DNA of 64,000 nucleotides from contig NZ_CM001436.1 of NCBI RefSeq assembly GCF_000243255.1, positions 310,692 through 374,691 of the forward strand, given 5' to 3'. This stretch comes from Methanoplanus limicola DSM 2279. GTDB taxonomy: Archaea > Halobacteriota > Methanomicrobia > Methanomicrobiales > Methanomicrobiaceae. Of the stretch, positions 14,369 to 32,635 are shown piece by piece. The position numbers and the translations under genes are program-made. The notes below the pieces were generated by a model. It saw only the letters and a list, made by a program, of their open reading frames with translations. It did not search any database and was not told where the DNA came from. The first letter of the stretch is position 1. Every line of letters starts with the position of its first letter.

Positions 14369-15343
14369 TCAGGGCACCTCTATAGTTCCAAGGATCTGAT
14401 CAATGACATCAGCCGTGGTTATACTGCTGATCTCAGATTCATACTTAAGAATAACCCTGTGCTGAAGGACACGGTGGGCAACTGCCTTGACATCATCCGG
14501 AGTGACATATGTCCGCCCGTTTATTGCTGCAAGGGCTTTAGAACCTCTCAGAAGTGCAATGGAACCTCTCGAACTTGCACCAAGCCTGACATCGCCATGA
14601 TTCCTGGTGGCAATTATAATATCACGGATATACCCAAGAACAGGAGGTTCAACCGTGATCTCCTTTACAGTTTCAGCGCCCCTGTCTATCTTCTCTGCGG
14701 ACAGCAGCGGCTTTACCTTACCTGAAATAAAGCTCCAGTTAAGAGATCCTTTCTGCTCACGTGAGATAATTTCAAGTTCATCGTCCGCATCAAGATACTT
14801 TGAATTGATTGAGAACATGAACCTGTCCTTCTGCGCTTCAATGAGCGGGAATGTCCCCTCCTGCTCAAAGGGATTTTGTGTAGCAATTGTAAAGAACGGT
14901 TTATTGAGCTTTACACCACGGCCGTCAACAGTGACCTGCCTCTCGCTCATCGCCTCAATAAATGCACTCTGACTCCGTGGCGGAAGACGGTTTATCTCAT
15001 CAATGAGCAGAATATTGGTGAATACAGGCCCTCTCTTAAACTCAAACTCATTCTCCCTCTGGTTCCAGATCCTGATACCGATAATATCTGACGGCTGGGT
15101 ATCGACCGCACACTGAAGCCTTTTGCTCTCACATCCAAGCATTATTGATACCAGTTTTACAATCGTTGTTTTGGCTGTGCCCGGCACACCCTCGATTAAG
15201 ACATGCCCGTCGCTTAAAACTCCGATGAGGATAGTCTCGACAAGGTTCTGGTTGCCTACAATATATGAACCGGTAATTTCACGTACCTGAGCACAGACGG
15301 ATGCGATATCTTTTATTCCTTCTTCTATTGATTCTTTATTCAT
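14369..15343 (-). CDS. MoxR family AAA+ ATPase (first operon)
   Basis: The 324-residue MoxR ATPase probably remodels or activates the DUF58/membrane partners. Walker A is G-V-P-G-T-A-K-T (about residues 52-59), Walker B L-L-I-D-E-I-N-R (about 112-119). Sensor 1 lies near F-F-T-I-A-T-Q-N-P, and the C-terminal lid contains A-V-A-H-R-V-L-Q-H-R-V-I-L. The MoxR-specific P-P-R-S-Q-S-A-F-I-E-A-M-S-E follows Walker B. Its start overlaps the end of the DUF4350-like gene (ATGA type). A paralogue lies at 31313-32299. Confidence 0.95.
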   Translation of the reverse strand: MNKESIEEGIKDIASVCAQVREITGSYIVGNQNLVETILIGVLSDGHVLIEGVPGTAKTTIVKLVSIMLGCESKRLQCAVDTQPSDIIGIRIWNQRENEFEFKRGPVFTNILLIDEINRLPPRSQSAFIEAMSERQVTVDGRGVKLNKPFFTIATQNPFEQEGTFPLIEAQKDRFMFSINSKYLDADDELEIISREQKGSLNWSFISGKVKPLLSAEKIDRGAETVKEITVEPPVLGYIRDIIIATRNHGDVRLGASSRGSIALLRGSKALAAINGRTYVTPDDVKAVAHRVLQHRVILKYESEISSITTADVIDQILGTIEVP

Positions 15344-16200
15344 TTCTCTTTCCTTGCAAGGGCTAATATTGTCAGCAGCGTTACAATAATTATGACTGAT
15401 ATTTTTATAAAATCTGTGCTTTTAAGTGCACCAAGTATTCCGGAGAGGCCGTCAGCAGATGCTGCGGCAGAGTGCCTGTACTCAACAAGCAGATTATCTG
15501 ACAGACCCATAATGTTCTGAATAAATCTGTCATTATCCCTCAGTCTCTTGTACCCGTACATCCGGTTGATAAAAAGACTTGAATCAGATAACAGATAAAC
15601 CTGCCCTGCCTCGTCCCGCACCATAACAGATCTCTTCCCAAGTGGTTCTGTGGCATCTGCCTTACCGTTTCCGTTCGTATCAATCCAGGAGAGAAAAGAA
15701 GACCTCATCAGGCTTATACCGCCTTCTGCAACCGACGGACTGTTCAGTGCCACACTTTCAACTCCGGCTGTGATCCCGTCCTCTTTATATGGGTAGCAGA
15801 TGATGAAACGCTTATTGTTGTACTCCATATCAGCACTGGAAAGATTTCCGGGAGTGACACTCAGCCCGGTTCCAAGGATACCAAGGAGAGTATTGGAATT
15901 TCCTGGTTCATCCGATATAAAGATCTTATTCCCATCCCTTAGAAATCTCATCAGAGCAGTAATCTCAGACGAAGTAAATTTGCCGTCCGGCTCTATCATC
16001 AGGAGGGTGCTGTTCTTTCGCCCATATAGATTTGAATAATCAGTAATGATCTTGGAACCGGCATCGTCATAAAACTGCGATGTCCCGTTCCAGTTGTAGT
16101 TGTAATGGCTGAATTCAGTGTCATTGCCGGAGAAATGTACATCAGCAACAAGAAGGGCTAAAATCAGCAGACCGAAGAATGCAATATGCCATGATCTCAT
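15340..16200 (-). CDS. DUF4350-like membrane-anchored protein
   Basis: The 286-residue protein has an N-terminal hydrophobic helix (residues 7-23) and a C-terminal one (about 262-282), with an extracytoplasmic Rossmann-like domain between. The sequences L-L-M-I-E-P-D-G-K-F-T-S-S-E and F-L-R-D-G-N-K-I-F-I-S-D-E-P fit DUF4350, related to the GldG/ABC-type accessory domain and typical of MoxR-DUF58 operons. It overlaps its neighbours on both sides by four bases. Role presumed structural or sensory in the membrane complex. Confidence 0.8.
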   Translation of the reverse strand: MRSWHIAFFGLLILALLVADVHFSGNDTEFSHYNYNWNGTSQFYDDAGSKIITDYSNLYGRKNSTLLMIEPDGKFTSSEITALMRFLRDGNKIFISDEPGNSNTLLGILGTGLSVTPGNLSSADMEYNNKRFIICYPYKEDGITAGVESVALNSPSVAEGGISLMRSSFLSWIDTNGNGKADATEPLGKRSVMVRDEAGQVYLLSDSSLFINRMYGYKRLRDNDRFIQNIMGLSDNLLVEYRHSAAASADGLSGILGALKSTDFIKISVIIIVTLLTILALARKEK

Positions 16201-18107
16201 GATTCACCCTCAGCATAGAACTCTCTGAAATTTTCACCGGCATCCAGATCATCAGTGATTTTATCAAATATATGATATAATGACAATTCATCACCTTTGT
16301 CATAAACTCCCTGATAAACCAGTTTTTCATAAAGCCTGATGAAGCTTTCAGTATCACTGATTACAGATTCATGAACCTTCACAGAAATTCCGGCCATAAC
16401 TTCCGGAGATGAACCGCCGCTTTCTCTCTCACATATGCCACATAACCTGTGCATAAACTCATTTGCAGTCATTGATTTTTTATAGGAAATATTATATTTT
16501 CCGGCAATCACACCAAAGAGCACTGAAATAAGGAAGTGATATCCTTCAAAATACCCCGATTGTGAAATGACATCCAGATATCGCTTTTTAACGGACTTAT
16601 CTCTCTTTTCCACCAGATGAATTGTTTTCTTTGTTGCAGGAGATTTCTTCAGATCTTCTTCAGTATTATCCTCATCTTCTCTTCCGGAATCTTTTCTGAT
16701 CTTTAGTAAAGACAGTTCAGAAAACTTTGACAGCTTAGGAAGATCTTTTCTGTGATTTAATATATAATATCCGGCATAGCCAAAGAACAATGAGAAGAAG
16801 ACCACAATAACAATGATCTCTATAGAAAACGAACCGGGGATATATATCTGAATCTCCCGGCTCTCTGATTTATCAACCGGATATGCAGGATTATCAAATA
16901 CAGCATTTATAATGTGCAGACCTTCTCTAAGAGAAATATCTGCACTGAAATTACCATCATAACCTGTAACTGCATCTTTAATCTTTTTATTACCGGAGAG
17001 AAGTCCGACAGCTGCACCTGAAACAGGAATGCCATCGGCAGTCAGATTTCCAAAAAGCCGATAAATATTATTGCCTGATTCATCTGTTGCCTCACAATAA
17101 TCAAGACTTAAGAGGCCCGGAAGGCTTTTGACCTCAAATTCAAAAACATCAGAATATGAAATTCCTGTTTTTGAATATACAGTATGCTTTCCGGTCTTAA
17201 TACTCCTGACAGGATATTTGAATATATATCCACCATCCGGTTCAGCACCAGTCTCACCAGCCTTTTTGCTGTCTATGAATATTTCAACTGCCTTTTCATC
17301 ATATACCCACTCAACTGCTCCTGAGATATTAAGAAGATCTCCATAATGAACAACCAAAGGAGATACATCTATAGAAATATCCTCAGGTCTTACATCCTCA
17401 GGTCTTACATCATCAGGTCTTACATCATCAGGTCTTACATCATCAGGTACGAAATCCTCCGGATTCAGTTCATCATCACCGCCAATCTCATGAATGCTTT
17501 TGGAACTCTCCTCAAGATGTGATGTTTCAACTTCATACTTCTTTGAAGACTCAGTCAGATCCCTGGTGCTTTTTTCAAGCCTTGCCGTATCGATGCCCAT
17601 CTTCTTCTTTAAAGCCTCAATCTCATAAGTGACAGAGTAAAACTTATTGGAATCTCCGGACTCACGGTACTGGATCTGGAGCGTCTTTAAATCCTCCAGC
17701 AGTTCAGAATCCTGCACAGTCTCCTTTAAGGCTTCAAGCTGCTCCTTATTATTCCGCCTGAACTCCTCAATCTCAGAGTCATCCATATCCAGGTTTATTA
17801 TAAGATTGTCATATCTTGAGGCCAGGCGTGCATACTCCTCTAAGTCCTCTTTTGCATCATCAAGATTTTTAATCTTAAGATTAATCACAATGGAATCAGA
17901 GAGATCGATGAAATCCTGCATCATGCCAAAGGCATTGGCAGACTCCTCCCTTGAGATCTGCCGCAGTGCATCCGGATTATTATGCATATCCGTTCCGGGG
18001 ATGTCCTTTGGGGTGAAAAGTTCTGCTGAGTCAACAGTACTTAACAGAACAGATATGAAAAAGAGAGCAAGCACAGCAAGAATAAGTGCAGAATGAAACC
18101 TCTTCAT
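16197..18107 (-). CDS. Large secreted/membrane protein with coiled coil, Ig-like repeats and a cytoplasmic DUF4129-like tail
   Basis: 636 residues. A signal peptide or anchor lies at residues 8-27. Charged helical sequence, probably coiled coil, covers about 60-205. A pentapeptide repeat of the D-V-R-P-D type spans about residues 219-243. Ig/CARDB-like beta domains follow (about 245-425), with Y-S-K-T-G-I-S-Y-S-D-V-F-E-F. A transmembrane helix near 432-452 leads to a cytoplasmic domain with helical segments reminiscent of DUF4129. The topology suits a surface-exposed subunit connected to the ATPase side. Start ATG 18107 overlaps the upstream stop. Confidence 0.75.
   Translation of the reverse strand: MKRFHSALILAVLALFFISVLLSTVDSAELFTPKDIPGTDMHNNPDALRQISREESANAFGMMQDFIDLSDSIVINLKIKNLDDAKEDLEEYARLASRYDNLIINLDMDDSEIEEFRRNNKEQLEALKETVQDSELLEDLKTLQIQYRESGDSNKFYSVTYEIEALKKKMGIDTARLEKSTRDLTESSKKYEVETSHLEESSKSIHEIGGDDELNPEDFVPDDVRPDDVRPDDVRPEDVRPEDISIDVSPLVVHYGDLLNISGAVEWVYDEKAVEIFIDSKKAGETGAEPDGGYIFKYPVRSIKTGKHTVYSKTGISYSDVFEFEVKSLPGLLSLDYCEATDESGNNIYRLFGNLTADGIPVSGAAVGLLSGNKKIKDAVTGYDGNFSADISLREGLHIINAVFDNPAYPVDKSESREIQIYIPGSFSIEIIVIVVFFSLFFGYAGYYILNHRKDLPKLSKFSELSLLKIRKDSGREDEDNTEEDLKKSPATKKTIHLVEKRDKSVKKRYLDVISQSGYFEGYHFLISVLFGVIAGKYNISYKKSMTANEFMHRLCGICERESGGSSPEVMAGISVKVHESVISDTESFIRLYEKLVYQGVYDKGDELSLYHIFDKITDDLDAGENFREFYAEGES
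17380..17454 (-). repeat. 15-base in-frame tandem repeat encoding (D/E)DVRP units
   Basis: Five consecutive 15-base units (plus-strand form TCNTCAGGTCTTACA, last unit diverged) code for acidic pentapeptides D-V-R-P-D/E. Length changes would keep the reading frame. The repeat joins the coiled-coil part to the Ig-like part and may act as a spacer. Confidence 0.85.
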
Positions 18108-18370
18108 CTGCTGATAATCTCCAGAACCTTAAATGCAACAATCAGTCCAAACACTCCGACCCCTGCCGAGATAACTACCTTCAGATTCCTGATATATGAC
18201 GTGCTCAGATACGGTGAGTCAATCAGTTCAATTATTACAAGAATGCCTATAAGCCAGAGCACAAAAAGTATCTCAACATTCAGTATATTCGCGAGGGCCA
18301 TAAAAATTACCACTATAGCCAGCCATACAGACAGAACCAAAAGAGTCAGTTTCTTCTTATCGCCCCACAT
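18104..18370 (-). CDS. Small three-helix membrane protein, first gene of the MoxR operon
   Basis: The 88-residue protein has three predicted transmembrane helices (about residues 8-28, 31-50 and 62-84) and a short cytoplasmic start M-W-G-D-K-K-K. The family is unrecognised. It opens an operon of eight genes on the minus strand, with TTTAAA about 29 bases upstream of the ATG, suggesting a leaderless message. It overlaps the following gene by four bases. Confidence 0.7.
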   Translation of the reverse strand: MWGDKKKLTLLVLSVWLAIVVIFMALANILNVEILFVLWLIGILVIIELIDSPYLSTSYIRNLKVVISAGVGVFGLIVAFKVLEIISR

Positions 18371-18564: not shown

Positions 18565-19296
18565 ATGCAAAAAAGGCATACAATACTTATTCTTATGCTC
18601 CTTTTATCCGCAGCCATAATCATGTGCGCCGGATGCCTGCAGTCACAGGCAATGGAGAACAATGCAGAGCCGACAACCCCGGCAGCAGAAGAGACTGTAA
18701 AACCTGCAAACACTCCGGAATCAACTGCCGCAGCAGAGGAGACTGTAAACCCTGAAAACACTCCGGAATCAACTGCTACAGCAGAGGAGACTGTAAACCC
18801 TGAAAACACTCCGGAATCAACTGCCACAGCAGAAGATGAAACTGAATCAGAAGAAACCAACGATAATTCCGGATTAGAAGAACCTGCCGCAGGAGAATTA
18901 TCCAACTCATCAGAGAGCAACCCCTATCTTCCGGTTGTAGTCTGTGAAAACATAACTCCTGTAGAATACAGACCAATCTGGCCGGCCGGAACAATACTGT
19001 CAGATGCAAAAGGCGAATCGAAAGGAATAATCACAAAAGTTGATCATAAACAGAACAAATACTACTTCAGAAACCTGATCCTTCCACCGGAAAACGGCGA
19101 ACCATACCTCTTAAAAGATAACTCATTTGAACAGATGGGGCCTGTATTTGACTCAAAGTCAATTGAAGAGAAGTACCCCGGATATGAAGGAAAGATGATG
19201 AAGATAACAATCTACGGAAGAGGGGCAATAAAATCTGAGACCGGCTATCTTGAATACGACACAAAAGAGTCAATGAAGCACACTTCAGCTGATTAG
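18565..19296 (+). CDS. Secreted lipoprotein with 16-residue tandem repeats
   Basis: A signal peptide of about 21 residues ends in the lipobox I-M-C-A-G-C, so the protein is probably lipid-anchored on the outer face of the membrane. Residues 41-88 are three near-identical 16-residue units (E-T-V-N-P-E-N-T-P-E-S type), an extended T/P/E-rich spacer. The C-terminal 120 residues form an unrecognised globular domain containing P-I-W-P-A-G-T-I-L and K-Y-Y-F-R-N-L-I-L. It is divergent from the MoxR operon, with 194 bases between the starts. A T7 run follows the stop. Confidence 0.75.
   Translation: MQKRHTILILMLLLSAAIIMCAGCLQSQAMENNAEPTTPAAEETVKPANTPESTAAAEETVNPENTPESTATAEETVNPENTPESTATAEDETESEETNDNSGLEEPAAGELSNSSESNPYLPVVVCENITPVEYRPIWPAGTILSDAKGESKGIITKVDHKQNKYYFRNLILPPENGEPYLLKDNSFEQMGPVFDSKSIEEKYPGYEGKMMKITIYGRGAIKSETGYLEYDTKESMKHTSAD
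18685..18828 (+). repeat. 48-base tandem repeat, three units, inside the lipoprotein gene
   Basis: Units begin at 18685, 18733 and 18781. The second and third differ by one base; the first has diverged further. All stay in frame, so copy-number change would vary the spacer length only. Confidence 0.9.
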
Positions 19297-19317: not shown

Positions 19318-19392
19318 CCGGGAAAATATTCCGGAGAGATTAAGCACAGGCCCTTAAACTTTCAGTCTGTCAGGCAATACTTATCAGACTCA

Positions 19393-19450
19393 TATGAAAC
19401 AGTGCACTGTTTCATTCATTATCTGTGAACCGGCTGGTTCATGAATGACT
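19393..19450 (-). repeat. 58-base dispersed palindromic repeat, copy 1 (inverted)
   Basis: Identical base for base to copy 2 at 27611-27668 when reverse complemented. It holds a perfect palindrome (ATGAAACAGTG joined to CACTGTTTCAT) and an imperfect one (GAACC-AGCC-GGTTC). It lies between the 3' ends of the lipoprotein gene at 18565 and the minus-strand gene at 19503. Confidence 0.9.
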
Positions 19451-19502
19451 GTTATGATTCCGGCATGCACTATAAACCGGATCAAAATTCAAAAAAAGAT
19501 AT

Positions 19503-27594: not shown

Positions 27595-27610
27595 AAACAA
27601 AAATAAAAAT

Positions 27611-27668
27611 AGTCATTCATGAACCAGCCGGTTCACAGATAATGAATGAAACAGTGCACTGTTTCATA
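27611..27668 (+). repeat. 58-base dispersed palindromic repeat, copy 2
   Basis: Identical to copy 1 (reverse orientation) over 58 bases. The perfect palindrome is at 27646-27667. The copy sits between the lipoprotein gene and the 3' end of the second MoxR operon. Copies 2 and 3 also share GGAGAT directly after the repeat. Confidence 0.9.
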
Positions 27669-27704
27669 GGAGATTAGGGAAAAGATATATGTCCGGTGCA
27701 GTGG

Positions 27705-29381
27705 TCACACCTTCTTCTCCGCAATAATATTCCGGATATACCGGACGAAATCATCAAACTGTTCCTTATCGGCACTGCCCTTTGCAAATTCAACCGCCGA
27801 GCAGGCTTCAAGCAGATTTCCAAGATAAAGTTTATCACCGGAATAACTGCCGGTGTGACCTATAATATCCATAAGCTCCTCATTTGTAACCTCACTTCCG
27901 TCATAATAACTGTGCGAGAGATATATCCTCAAAGCCTGCCCGGCCTTTCCATATGCAGAGACATAATCACCTTCTGCAAAAGCTGATTCAGCTTCATCAA
28001 GCAGCCCTAAGGCATATTTCCGGTAATCAAAAGGAACCTTAACCACATCAGCCATAACAGATCCGCCCTCCGCAGTGCCTGAACAGTATTTCTTATAGAC
28101 AAACCATCCAATTACAGCCAGAACTGCAATCAGCAGAACCAACATAAACGGGAAAAGCCACGAATAATCATCAGCACGAATCAGCCTGACCTCATGTACC
28201 ACCTCGAGATCAGCACTTAAATCCGCAGTAATCTTTGGACTGTTATCAGATTCGTCCTCATTCTGAGCACCCGGATCTCCGTAAGAGGGGTTGAAAATCT
28301 GCTCAAATAATGCCCCGTCCTTAGTGTAATTGACCGAGGCAGAAACCGGGGCAAAACCATCATTCTGAAGAGTAACCAGGTAGTTCTGATATGTCTCATT
28401 ATTCAGGAGGCTCTCAGGAATGAGGCTTTCCTGCTCTTCAGGGTTAAAAATCTCTTCTACAGATGAAACCTCACCATCATTCACATTGCCTGAAAGTGTT
28501 ACCAAATCCCCTGCCTGATTCTTATACTCCCTTCTAAAAGAGCCTTCATCCATACTCTCAGGGTTTACTGATTCTGCCGAGAGTTCATAACCTTCCTCTG
28601 AAAGTTTCTCCTCAGCACTGCTAAGCAGTTCATCACCGGAAATCGCCTCAGAGAGGGCTTCCATCTCTCTGCCAATCTCCTCCGTCTTCTCTTCCATCTG
28701 TCTCTTTAAAGACTCTGGATTGTAGGACTGCTGAGAATTCTGCAGTGCCTGCTGAGATGAAACCGGCTGCTGCGCCTGACTGTTCATCATCTGATTGATC
28801 AGGCTCTGCTGTTGCTGCTGCATCTGATTCGCCATCTGCTGAGCGGAAGATGAACTCTGCTGACCTGAGGAAGAAGACTGCGATTCAGTACTGGTCTGAG
28901 GATTCTTTTGGTTCTTACCTGAAGTATCATCAGTGAAGTGTACCGTTATTGTGCCGAGCGTCACAGTCTTTGAAGTGCTGTCGTCTGAATACTGAAATGA
29001 AATATCCACGTCAATGGTCTTTTGGCTCTCAGATACAAGTCCGTTTAAGGTGAACTTCCCGTCTCCGGCAGGGAGTGTCAGCGGAGTACTTTGGGAATTG
29101 GAGGACGAATATGAAAATCCACCGGACTGAACCTTTTCAGTCGTCCTGTAAACCATCTGCCCGGAGACTGCATTTCCAAGACTGTTTTCGTATGCTATCG
29201 GAATCTCTGCCTCACTTCCGGTGCTGAAATAATAATCCTTCTGACCACTCTGAAAGGTAATCTCATCCGCAAGTACGGGCACTGCAAGGAGGGAGATTAA
29301 GAGCAGAAAAAGAATGATGGATTTTTTAGACCCGGAAATCCGACAATTACCGGATGATTCAGCACTTAAATCCGTTTTCAC
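27705..29381 (-). CDS. Secreted/membrane protein with Q/S-rich region, last gene of the second MoxR operon
   Basis: 558 residues. A signal peptide or anchor lies near residues 20-38. A beta-rich domain covers about 40-150. A Q/S/N-rich low-complexity segment spans roughly 155-225. A charged helical region and a repeat-like domain follow (about 225-400, with two S-x-E-E-I-F-N-P and E-Q-I-F-N-P segments). A transmembrane helix lies near 410-432, then a cytoplasmic helical tail resembling DUF4129 with A-G-Q-A-L-R-I-Y-L-S-H-S-Y. Layout parallels the large protein of the first operon. Start overlaps the VWA gene end. Confidence 0.75.
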   Translation of the reverse strand: MKTDLSAESSGNCRISGSKKSIILFLLLISLLAVPVLADEITFQSGQKDYYFSTGSEAEIPIAYENSLGNAVSGQMVYRTTEKVQSGGFSYSSSNSQSTPLTLPAGDGKFTLNGLVSESQKTIDVDISFQYSDDSTSKTVTLGTITVHFTDDTSGKNQKNPQTSTESQSSSSGQQSSSSAQQMANQMQQQQQSLINQMMNSQAQQPVSSQQALQNSQQSYNPESLKRQMEEKTEEIGREMEALSEAISGDELLSSAEEKLSEEGYELSAESVNPESMDEGSFRREYKNQAGDLVTLSGNVNDGEVSSVEEIFNPEEQESLIPESLLNNETYQNYLVTLQNDGFAPVSASVNYTKDGALFEQIFNPSYGDPGAQNEDESDNSPKITADLSADLEVVHEVRLIRADDYSWLFPFMLVLLIAVLAVIGWFVYKKYCSGTAEGGSVMADVVKVPFDYRKYALGLLDEAESAFAEGDYVSAYGKAGQALRIYLSHSYYDGSEVTNEELMDIIGHTGSYSGDKLYLGNLLEACSAVEFAKGSADKEQFDDFVRYIRNIIAEKKV

Positions 29382-30328
29382 TGTATAATACGCCCCCTTC
29401 CATATCTGATGTAAATCTCACCCAGGAGAAGAACTGCCGAGATGATATAAAATACAAAGGCTATGCTTGTATCCTCTTTCTCACGCTTAATCTCAGAATT
29501 CAGGCTCGAATATATATCCGAAAGTGTCCTGTCATCCACCGATTTGAAATATTTTCCGCCTGTAGAGTCCGCAATCTCCTGTAAAGTGGCCTCATCAAGT
29601 TCGGCATACTGCGGGTTGCCAAACCAGTCATATCCAAGCACTACAGGCTGATTAGATCCCATTCCGATAGTGAAGACCTGAATATTGCTCTCCTTTGCAT
29701 AAGCTTCCGCCTCCTGCGGTGAGATGACTCCGGCGTTATTGACACCGTCAGACAAAAGAATTACAACCTTCTTCTGATTTGGAATCGAATCTGCCATATT
29801 TATGCCAAGGGCAAGTCCGTCACCTATAGCAGTGGCGCCGTCCTTTGACATAATGTCATTCAGATTTTCAATAACCCTCTCTTTATCCGGCGTAAGATAA
29901 CTCGCAGTCGAAGCTCCGGATTCAAAGACCACAATTCCGGCATAGTCCTTTGGATCGAGATCCTTAATCAGCTCTTCAGCAGCTCCCTTTGCAGCCTCAA
30001 GACGGTTTGGGGAATAATCGGTCGCCTGCATACTTCCGGAATTGTCCATCACAAGGACAACGCTTACACCCTCCTTAGTCTGCTCAAGCGGGATATGCGG
30101 ATCGGCAAGCCCGATAAATATACATCCTATTGCCGCAAGAATCAGAATAACAAGAATTTTCGGCTTCCTTGACTTAGAGAGATCACCAAGAGTGCTCTTT
30201 AAAAAACTCACCCGGGAAAAAGCCATAGCCTCCTGCTTTCTCTTCCTCGCCGAAATTTCAATATAATACCAGCACACCGGAAGAATCAGAAGGCCGAGTA
30301 ACCATTCCGGGCTGTAAAAACCTGCCAT
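29378..30328 (-). CDS. VWA-domain membrane protein (BatA-like)
   Basis: The 316-residue protein has transmembrane helices near residues 8-20 and 56-72, and one near the C-terminus (about 293-311). The VWA domain between has a full MIDAS: V-M-D-N-S-G-S-M, T-A-I-G-D-G-L and L-L-S-D-G-V-N-N. This is the arrangement of aerotolerance-type BatA proteins acting with MoxR and DUF58. Probably an extracytoplasmic metal-dependent ligand binder. It begins three bases before the DUF58 stop and overlaps the next gene by four bases. Confidence 0.9.
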   Translation of the reverse strand: MAGFYSPEWLLGLLILPVCWYYIEISARKRKQEAMAFSRVSFLKSTLGDLSKSRKPKILVILILAAIGCIFIGLADPHIPLEQTKEGVSVVLVMDNSGSMQATDYSPNRLEAAKGAAEELIKDLDPKDYAGIVVFESGASTASYLTPDKERVIENLNDIMSKDGATAIGDGLALGINMADSIPNQKKVVILLSDGVNNAGVISPQEAEAYAKESNIQVFTIGMGSNQPVVLGYDWFGNPQYAELDEATLQEIADSTGGKYFKSVDDRTLSDIYSSLNSEIKREKEDTSIAFVFYIISAVLLLGEIYIRYGRGRIIQ

Positions 30329-30331
30329 ATA

Positions 30332-31270
30332 TCACACACCTCTCTTAATTTCACCGGAGAAAAATTTCTTTAAAACTATATCATACCTGTCGGTGGTTTT
30401 AAGGTCAACACAGCCGATTCTGCACCTCTTAAAAGAATTAAAAACCTTCTCATCCGCTTCCCTGACAGATTCCTCAAACCGAATTCTTACAGACTCGTCC
30501 GAGGTGTCAATGAGAATCTGTTCACCGGTTTCAGGGTCCTCCAGCTCAATAAGGCCGACATCCGGCAGTTCTGACTCCCTCGGATCAGTAAGCCGGATTG
30601 CAATAACCTCATGCCGTCCTTTCATAATCTTAAGCGGTTTCCGATAGCCTTCGGCATAAAAGTCAGAGATCAGAATGACCGAACTCTTCCTCTTAACAGT
30701 CTTTGAGAGGAAGGAGATGGCCGGTGATATATCAGTACCCTTAGATTCGGGGACAAATTCAGTCATTGTATTAAGTATCTTTATCAGATGCTTTCGCCCC
30801 CGCCCTGCCGGGATGAACTTCTCCACCCTGTCAGTGAATATGCAGAGGCCCACACGGTCATTGTTTTTAATTGCCGCAAATCCAATCGAGGCGCAGATCT
30901 CAATCATACGTTCATATTTCGGAACAACCAAACCAAAACTTCCGGAACCTGAATAGTCCGGCACGAGGTAGAAGGTCTGATCCCTCTCCTCGGTAAACTC
31001 CTTGATATATGGATGGTTGAGCCTCGCAGTGACATTCCAGTCAATAGCCCGGACGTCATCACCAGGCACATACTCCCTTATATCAGTGAACTCAATACCC
31101 TGGCCCTTAAATACAGATCTGTGCTGCCCGGACTGGAGGCCTTCAACATATATTTTTGTATATAACTCCACATCTGAGATCTTCTTTATCAGGTCCCTGA
31201 CATCCCTCCCGGGAGCAGCCACCGTCTCTGAAACAGCCTCTCTTTTAAATCCGGGAATTTTAAATTTCAT
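30332..31270 (-). CDS. DUF58 domain protein (second MoxR operon)
   Basis: 312 residues from ATG 31270, preceded by GGGAGGT; the earlier GTG start at 31288 covers that ribosome binding site. DUF58 features: D-I-R-E-Y-V-P-G-D-D-V-R-A-I-D-W-N-V-T-A near residues 65-85 and Y-L-V-P-D-Y-S-G-S-G-S-F-G, with V-I-L-I-S-D-F-Y-A-E-G-Y in the VWA-like part. No transmembrane segment is visible, so unlike the first copy it is soluble. It is expected to be a partner of the adjacent MoxR. Confidence 0.9.
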   Translation of the reverse strand: MKFKIPGFKREAVSETVAAPGRDVRDLIKKISDVELYTKIYVEGLQSGQHRSVFKGQGIEFTDIREYVPGDDVRAIDWNVTARLNHPYIKEFTEERDQTFYLVPDYSGSGSFGLVVPKYERMIEICASIGFAAIKNNDRVGLCIFTDRVEKFIPAGRGRKHLIKILNTMTEFVPESKGTDISPAISFLSKTVKRKSSVILISDFYAEGYRKPLKIMKGRHEVIAIRLTDPRESELPDVGLIELEDPETGEQILIDTSDESVRIRFEESVREADEKVFNSFKRCRIGCVDLKTTDRYDIVLKKFFSGEIKRGV

Positions 31271-31312
31271 ACATTTCTGACCTCCCACGAAAACGGATAA
31301 TCACAGAGATAT

Positions 31313-32299
31313 TCATGGCACAGGCACTGACTGAAGAATCTTCTCAATCAGGTCGTCAGTTGTGACCTCTTCGGCTTCGGCCTCATATGTCAGCAGGATT
31401 CTGTGCCTGAGCACGTCAGCGGCTATTGACTTTACATCCTGCGGGGTGACATAACCCCTGCCCTTAAGCAGAGCATACGCCTTTGCACCCAGTACAAGAT
31501 AGATTGAGGCCCGCGGGGATGCACCGCATGAGATATAATTTCCGGCATCAAGTCCGTATCTGTCAGGATTCCGGGTGGCATCAACGAGAGCAGCACAGTA
31601 TTTCTTAATCTCAGACTCTGCATATATCTCCTTTACGAATTTCTGGATCTCGATTATCTTCTCAGCCGGAATAACCCTCTCAGGCTTTGAGGCGAAGCCT
31701 TCGGTGAACCTGTCAAGAATTATAACCTCATCTGACAGTGACGGATAGGTCATCATTACCTTAAACATAAACCTGTCAACCTGTGCCTCGGGGAGAGGAT
31801 ATGTCCCCTCGGACTCTATCGGATTTTCGGTTGCGAGAACAAAGAAAGGGCTGTTAAGAGGGAATGTATTGCCCTGAATAGTAACCTGGTACTCCTGCAT
31901 AGCCTCAAGAAGGGCGGACTGCACCTTTGGGGGCGCACGGTTTATCTCATCCGCAAGTATGAAACTTGCAAATACAGGCCCTTTCACAGTGCTGAACTCA
32001 CCGTCATGGTGATTGTAAATTCTTGTACCAACAATGTCTGAGGGCAGGAGGTCAGGTGTGAACTGAATCCTTGAAAAGTCAGCATCAATGCATTCTGAAA
32101 GTGTCTTTATAGTAAGCGTCTTTGCAATGCCGGGGACACCTTCCAAAAGCACATGCCCCCCTGCTGACAGTGCGATTAGAAGTCTGTCAACAACTTCGTC
32201 CTGCCCGACAATGACTCTTTTAACCTCATTTTTGACATTATTGAGAATATCAGAATATTCTGAGGCTCTCCGGTTAAGCTCTTCAATTTCAGCATTCAT
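31313..32299 (-). CDS. MoxR family AAA+ ATPase (second operon)
   Basis: 328 residues. Walker A G-V-P-G-I-A-K-T (about 53-60), Walker B I-L-A-D-E-I-N-R, the MoxR insert P-P-K-V-Q-S-A-L-L-E-A-M-Q-E, sensor L-A-T-E-N-P, and the C-terminal lid A-A-D-V-L-R-H-R-I-L-L-T-Y. AGGAG precedes ATG 32299. It is the first gene of the operon continuing with DUF58, VWA and a large secreted protein. Paralogue of the MoxR at 14369-15343, but from a different subgroup judging by the Walker B context. Confidence 0.95.
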   Translation of the reverse strand: MNAEIEELNRRASEYSDILNNVKNEVKRVIVGQDEVVDRLLIALSAGGHVLLEGVPGIAKTLTIKTLSECIDADFSRIQFTPDLLPSDIVGTRIYNHHDGEFSTVKGPVFASFILADEINRAPPKVQSALLEAMQEYQVTIQGNTFPLNSPFFVLATENPIESEGTYPLPEAQVDRFMFKVMMTYPSLSDEVIILDRFTEGFASKPERVIPAEKIIEIQKFVKEIYAESEIKKYCAALVDATRNPDRYGLDAGNYISCGASPRASIYLVLGAKAYALLKGRGYVTPQDVKSIAADVLRHRILLTYEAEAEEVTTDDLIEKILQSVPVP

Positions 32300-32456
32300 A
32301 CTGGCGTCTCCTAATAATCAGTAATGACTAAAAAGTCAAATCTGTAAATCCAGTTTTTAAAGAAATTTTATATAAATGATCCGGATACCGGTGGTTAAAG
32401 TGAAGAAACAGAGTGGATTCATTCCGGCCGGATGATATTCCGGCGGGAAACAAAAA

Positions 32457-32514
32457 AGTCACTCATGAACCAGCCGGTTCACAGATGATGAATGAAACAG
32501 TGTAATGTTTCATA
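32457..32514 (+). repeat. 58-base dispersed palindromic repeat, copy 3 (diverged)
   Basis: Aligned with copy 2 it has four differences: one near the start, one in the middle, two at the centre of the perfect palindrome. It lies in the 364-base gap between the second MoxR operon start and tRNA-Leu. That gap otherwise shows AT-rich sequence, a short direct repeat (ACAACAGTTAT at about 32589 and 32614) and the tRNA promoter. Confidence 0.85.
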
Positions 32515-32635
32515 GGAGATGCAGTCAGCCACAGATCAGATATGAGAAAATAATTATTCAGGAGATGCGGATTTTTCTGAGATTTTAAACAACAGTTATT
32601 TTAGCTATTATTGACAACAGTTATGGGTATTTTTG

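Follow-up and report, generated by a model that had tools for sequence, protein, structure and literature searches.

REP systems are known from bacteria. Their enzyme, TnpA_REP, cleaves REP substrates at CT (PMC8266576). In the archaeon Haloquadratum walsbyi, PATEs are related to IS605, lack terminal inverted repeats (TIRs) and target duplications, carry palindromes near their termini and have been reported in a 52-bp 'terminal only' form (PMC3119063). A survey of 172 genomes of Archaea recovered, among Y1 proteins, the IS200-like subclass only, and no TnpA_REP (PMC6006769).

We analyzed a repeat of Methanoplanus limicola DSM 2279 within a 64,000-nt stretch of DNA (hereafter the window; G000:C1:310692-374691), which belongs to a single 3.2-Mb contig. 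Window positions 19393-19450 hold the 58-nt sequence TATGAAACAGTGCACTGTTTCATTCATTATCTGTGAACCGGCTGGTTCATGAATGACT (copy 1). The sequence confirmed what the first-pass annotation had claimed: copy 2 (minus strand, inside 27607-27672) is inverted and identical to copy 1 over 58 nt, copy 3 (minus strand, inside 32453-32518) differs from copy 1 at exactly four of 58 positions, and copy 1 contains a perfect 22-nt palindrome, ATGAAACAGTGCACTGTTTCAT. Two of the four differences in copy 3 alter the centre of the palindrome (AGTGCACT to ATTACACT). The 58-base identity stands, but the extent of the repeat had to be redrawn: the unit starts 4 nt further to the left (CTCCT; CTCAT in copy 1), and beside the palindrome, which is hairpin 1, it contains a second hairpin that the first-pass annotation had left undescribed. 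As noted earlier, the copies are intergenic (three of three in the window), with convergent genes flanking copies 1 and 2 and two same-strand genes flanking copy 3. The features are as follows.

19389-19448, plus strand: mobile unit of copy 1, CTCAT...GAATGA (sequence, family search, absence from the sister region)
19394-19415, plus strand: hairpin 1 of copy 1, the perfect 22-nt palindrome (sequence, fold)
19425-19442, plus strand: hairpin 2 of copy 1, GTGAACC-GGCT-GGTTCAT (sequence, fold)
19449-19454, plus strand: 3' CT and T-rich target tract of copy 1, CTGTTA (probable target origin, judged from the empty sites of other copies)
27613-27672, minus strand: mobile unit of copy 2 (sequence, family search, empty orthologous site in the sister species)
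27646-27667, minus strand: hairpin 1 of copy 2 (sequence)
27619-27636, minus strand: hairpin 2 of copy 2 (sequence)
27607-27612, minus strand: 3' CT and T-tract target of copy 2, CTATTT (T-tract present in the empty site of the sister species)
32459-32518, minus strand: mobile unit of copy 3, with the variant apex ATTACACT (sequence, family search, absence from the sister species)
32492-32513, minus strand: hairpin 1 of copy 3 (genome search)
32465-32482, minus strand: hairpin 2 of copy 3 (genome search)
32453-32458, minus strand: 3' CT and T-tract of copy 3, CTTTTT (family alignment, flank profile)

The three copies lie around two similar gene clusters (window 14369-18370 and 29378-32299), which we take to encode MoxR-type ATPase, DUF58-like and membrane proteins. 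The window also contains in-frame tandem 15-bp units coding for VRPDD-like repeats (17364-17483) and, in a predicted lipoprotein gene, in-frame tandem 48-bp units (18674-18836).

The three copies counted at first are those of the window, whereas the genome holds many more. BLAST found 44 full or near-full copies in the source genome (G000), with E-values down to 3e-25 for the other copies, which excludes chance. With a covariance model built from 28 copies, we found ~64 copies in this genome and ~38 in its sister species (G001), which rules out the absence of other copies that the first-pass annotation had named as a refutation. The copies of the sister species carry other apices on the same stems, ATGAAACA-TT-TGTTTCAT and ATGAAAAACTTCGATTTTTCAT. 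Other members of the order Methanomicrobiales carry copies as well. A complete genome of another genus (G013) has one clear copy like those of G000, and a LacPavin Methanomicrobiales MAG of another family (G191, 78% complete) has at least 22 copies of a cousin unit, CCTGAT-ATGAAACAC-TTCG-TGTTTCAT-AGCCTTC-TATGAACC-CTCT-GTTCATCG-NTGACTTTTT. This second family-level lineage keeps the pattern CT...ATGAAA..TTTCAT..TGAACC..GTTCAT..TGACTTTTT. Elsewhere in the order, the family occurs here and there as single copies or small sets. A broader model had matches in 18 of the 232 class genomes; these span several families, and most have few copies. Occurrence is sporadic, and a few genomes show bursts. The earlier statement that no known family is recognized was upheld: Rfam 15 gave no match over the element at six loci, PLSDB plasmids gave no match to the repeat, and no description of it was found in the literature searched. 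Two pattern matches in viral contigs were attributed to chance, since no left half of the unit lies 5' of the hairpin; matches of a degenerate pattern in Stappia, Sulfurospirillum and Saprospiraceae are probably chance as well, as the pattern fixes only 20 bases. In two other genomes (G071 and G175; L219-L234), we observed a related ~86-nt two-hairpin module, CTGGTATGAAAAA...TTTTTCATGCTCATCTATGAGCC..GGCTCATGGCAC (for example L231 1518-1603, minus strand). Almost every copy of this module is joined to a TIR element that starts with GCTTTGTTGAAAC and ends with GTTTCAACAAAGC; the L230 copy is without the fusion.

The unit of ~60 bp reads CTCCT-[ATGAAA...TTTCAT]-YCATYATCT-[GTGAACC...GGTTCAT]-GARTGA. 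Its left end is CTCCTATG and its right end GARTGACT, without TIRs, and the palindromes near both ends are the two hairpins, which are non-identical and keep the same order and orientation in every unit. Both hairpins fold strongly (MFE z-score -3.8). On 100 distinct copies, 87.7% of cells were paired (at most 48% with slid partners), the covariation score was 0.128, with slid controls reaching at most 0.044, and double-change cells numbered 41 against 18.5 in shuffles; because the model had guided the alignment and the copies, being related, are non-independent, these figures are supportive and not exact. Among the covarying changes is C-G to A-U in hairpin 1. Independently of the fit, hairpin 2 shows the compensatory variants GAACC/GGTTC, GAGCC..GCTC (also GAGC/GCTC) and GTGTGC..GCACAT. 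The stems are kept through such changes, and the apices differ between subfamilies. The foot pair of hairpin 2 is a near-fixed G.T in G000 and G001 and A-T in G191; this pair would favor the written strand as the folded one, while other pairs in the wobble counts point the opposite way. A 39-nt derivative (G000:C1:1655775-1655813; L133 5069-5107) retains hairpin 1 and a GAATGACTTTTT end, has lost hairpin 2 and adjoins a T-tract.

We located orthologous regions between G000 and G001 through flanking proteins. The comparison ran in both directions and covered ~40 orthologous sites, of which only two were occupied in both species (G000 594366 = G001 2518978; G000 826056 = G001 1266953). Purifying selection on the copy at the former site was considered and withdrawn, because the surrounding proteins are mostly 97-99% identical, as expected after recent exchange. 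Along G000 ~591-599 kb and G001 ~2515-2522 kb (L123, L115), proteins show this same identity, whereas elsewhere they differ by 5-25%, pointing to a stretch probably exchanged recently between the two species. At the latter site, the units come from different subfamilies and the sequences directly beside them fail to align, so that it may represent two insertions at one gene end. Further, window positions 18.0-34.0 kb are collinear end to end with G001, every block having the same relative orientation, and the three units are missing there. The intervals measure 164 versus ~2 bp (the latter in L158) for copy 1 (window gap 19327-19490), 77 versus 16 bp for copy 2, a clean 61-bp extra, and 129 versus 64 bp for copy 3. 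This collinearity speaks against the earlier suggestion that the 8 kb separating copies 1 and 2 could have been inverted. Near-identical copies at non-orthologous sites indicate that each species had its own burst. Gain rather than loss was read from the empty sites, in this two-species comparison. The earlier view of a dispersed family that spread recently was borne out.

In the cleanest cases, the empty site reads flank^CT followed by T-rich sequence; when occupied, it reads flank-CTCCTATG...GARTGA-CT followed by T-rich sequence. Insertion had occurred directly 5' of a pre-existing CT and T-tract at the following clean empty sites, although single junction bases are uncertain where flanks have diverged.

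G001 1540878: AATCTGT^CTTTTTATC
G000 2075661: AAAATCT^CTCTTTTTATT
G000 1823578: AT^CTATCTAACAAGC
G000 568002 (array): CCTAAT^CTATTTTATCC
G001 781457: GCATTAT^CTTCTTC...
Window copy 2: T-tract in the sister sequence

Target duplication at empty sites is at most 2 bp (CT). The insert of ~60 bp with CT at both edges could reflect either a 2-bp duplication or a CT target combined with cuts that follow CT at each end. In the tandem arrays 96090/96150/96210 and 568002/568060, units are joined end to start by ...TGA-CT-CCTATG... or a close variant, with no T-tract between them. Over 77 copies, the right flank reads CT-[T/A]-TTTT and is random thereafter, and the left flank prefers AT; the T frequency is 0.71-0.95 at the five positions after GACT and then 0.32. 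At least four T occur in these five bases in 70 of 85 copies, compared with 15 of 139 TGACT sites in the window. An intrinsic terminator as part of the element was rejected, because the T-tract, being pre-existing and absent between tandem units, belongs to the target.

Genes around the copies were called with a simple codon-usage caller made for this analysis. The downstream side of a same-strand gene was favored (62 versus 35, p 0.008), which agrees with the 3'-end location first reported, as were convergent over divergent gaps (32 versus 14, p 0.011), and the median distance to the upstream stop codon was 91 bp. These biases, together with a conserved RNA-type fold followed by a U-tract, would suit a cis-acting RNA element, in which hairpins and U-tract serve as a terminator or 3'-end stabilizer that is selected and spread by recombination or gene conversion. 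However, between tandem genes 30 copies had the same orientation and 21 the opposite one (p 0.26), so that a third or more of the copies are wrongly oriented to terminate the upstream gene. The U-tract is already present in empty sites and missing between tandem units, almost no site is conserved between the species, and the bursts of near-identical copies are species-specific and at non-orthologous sites. We therefore consider a cis-acting RNA element unlikely. Orientation is segregated along the chromosome of G001 (permutation p 0.03; 21 of 25 copies at 0.15-2.26 Mb on the minus strand versus 3 of 13 in the rest), and this is absent from G000 (p 0.34). Such segregation would be expected from insertion with a preference for one replication strand, and here it is suggestive at most; in the replication-strand check, GC-skew followed gene strand.

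An associated TnpA_REP-like transposase, as the first-pass annotation had envisaged, was looked for and not found. In searches with Pfam models, in one representative genome per species, Y1_Tnp (PF01797) matched only four copies of one IS605 plus a fragment of it in G000, that is, the IS605 TnpA and no RAYT (TnpA_REP) gene, and matched nothing in G013 or G191. This resident IS605, the only insertion sequence with which the unit was compared for a match to IS termini, has different, unrelated ends (CCCACGACTTTAGTCGTGGG) and the target TTTAC. By eye, no obvious transposase was seen among predicted genes at the copy clusters at 1998-2007 kb and 2312-2324 kb or beside the copies in G071 and G175. 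The unit consensus shows no GTAG or CGTC tag at a hairpin foot, and on the strand that would be cut at CT, neither hairpin has a visible GTAG-like guide on its 5' side. Another reading makes the unit a non-autonomous donor for a bridge-RNA (DEDD) recombinase of the IS110 type, which would exchange a CT core; insertion would leave CT at either edge and duplicate nothing else, a footprint like that of IS621 (CT core: PMC11208160). However, IS110 transposases are absent from G000, G013 and G191 (G001 has one), double-stranded donors do not explain hairpins with compensatory changes, and the CT has only a T-tract as its context, without the more extended guide matches to the left and right of the target by which IS621 sites are defined; such a donor is very unlikely. 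Marginally less likely still is that the unit is an end, or what remains of one, of a conventional IS or MITE moved by a DDE transposase, the parent having been lost. The compound spread of the ~86-nt module with the TIR element beginning GCTTTGTTGAAAC in G071 and G175 recalls such an origin, but the window-type unit has no TIRs and its empty sites show no multi-base target duplication. Further, a hidden long parent was rejected, because all exact matches to the left end (34 in G000 and 21 in G001) and right end (27 and 16) belonged to complete units, apart from those in a single deletion derivative. Finally, mobility might depend, possibly through RNA, on an enzyme that is neither Y1 HUH nor IS110 and of a kind so far not associated with hairpin elements. 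Neither known CT-cutting class accompanies the family, the CT-T5 target is well defined and structure is strongly conserved; yet the negatives come from the Pfam models and representative genomes described above, and a past or intermittent transposase would leave the same pattern. Such an enzyme is a doubtful but real possibility.

We favor the reading that the repeat is a minimal non-autonomous mobile element of ~60 bp, moved in trans by an enzyme that would recognize hairpins on a single strand and insert at CT-T5 targets (probability about 0.6). That it is a mobile, non-autonomous element, of PATE/REP-like form, follows from the dispersed copies, their presence and absence, the empty sites and the tandem joins, and we hold this with high confidence. 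Its mobile two-hairpin nature and its CT-T5 target are well supported. Single-strand movement of the HUH type, given a little less than an even chance, is the best analogy, though unproven and without its enzyme. An enzyme acting in trans would recognize the two hairpins folded in single-stranded DNA, cutting and joining at CT, like the HUH (Y1) transposases of IS200/IS605 and of the TnpA_REP kind. The donor ends would be flank-CT/CCTATG... and ...TGACT/, and the target CT/WTTTT (cuts at the slashes). Against this mechanism, neither TnpA_REP nor IS605 is known to need a 3' T-tract. Archaeal T-tract terminators sit at gene 3' ends; with the T-tract as a target preference, copies would accumulate there, which would explain the gene-end bias without a function in cis. 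Insertion at a gene 3' end would be harmless and would add two hairpins to the 3' UTR. More speculatively, and probably not the case, the repeat could belong to an order-wide archaeal family of ~60-nt two-hairpin elements moving as single strands (DNA or RNA) into terminator-like CT-T5 tracts by an enzyme not yet recognized as a transposase. This clearly mobile REP-like methanogen family, with defined edges and target, datable empty sites and no RAYT, offers a handle on spread without the known enzyme and shows a route by which structured hairpins enter the 3' UTRs of genes in methanogens.

Of the two likenesses proposed at first, REP and MITE, the general character holds but the classical MITE does not. 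The unit shares with MITEs short, non-autonomous, multicopy insertions, but lacks TIRs and any target duplication beyond a possible CT. It resembles IS621/IS110 in having CT at both insertion edges, but there is no recombinase in G000, 60 bp have no capacity for a bridge RNA and the hairpins are conserved. Like REPs and BIMEs, the unit is short, intergenic and hairpin-forming and has dozens of copies biased to gene 3' ends; the CT at both of its edges would be consistent with cleavage at CT, the dinucleotide cut by TnpA_REP. Unlike REPs and BIMEs, it has neither a GTAG/CGTC tag nor a tnpA_REP gene, and its two hairpins are non-identical and fixed in order and orientation. The likeness to PATEs lies in the archaeal host, the lack of TIRs and of target duplication beyond at most CT, the palindromes near the ends, the many copies and a length (~60 bp) too short for a transposase. 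In contrast, PATE palindromes match IS605-type transposons, whereas the resident IS605 is unrelated here, and the present unit is little more than two hairpins and adjoins CT-T5 tracts. Given the absence of IS605-like ends on the one hand and of a GTAG tag and RAYT on the other, we concluded that the repeat is PATE-like and REP-like, and a member of neither group.
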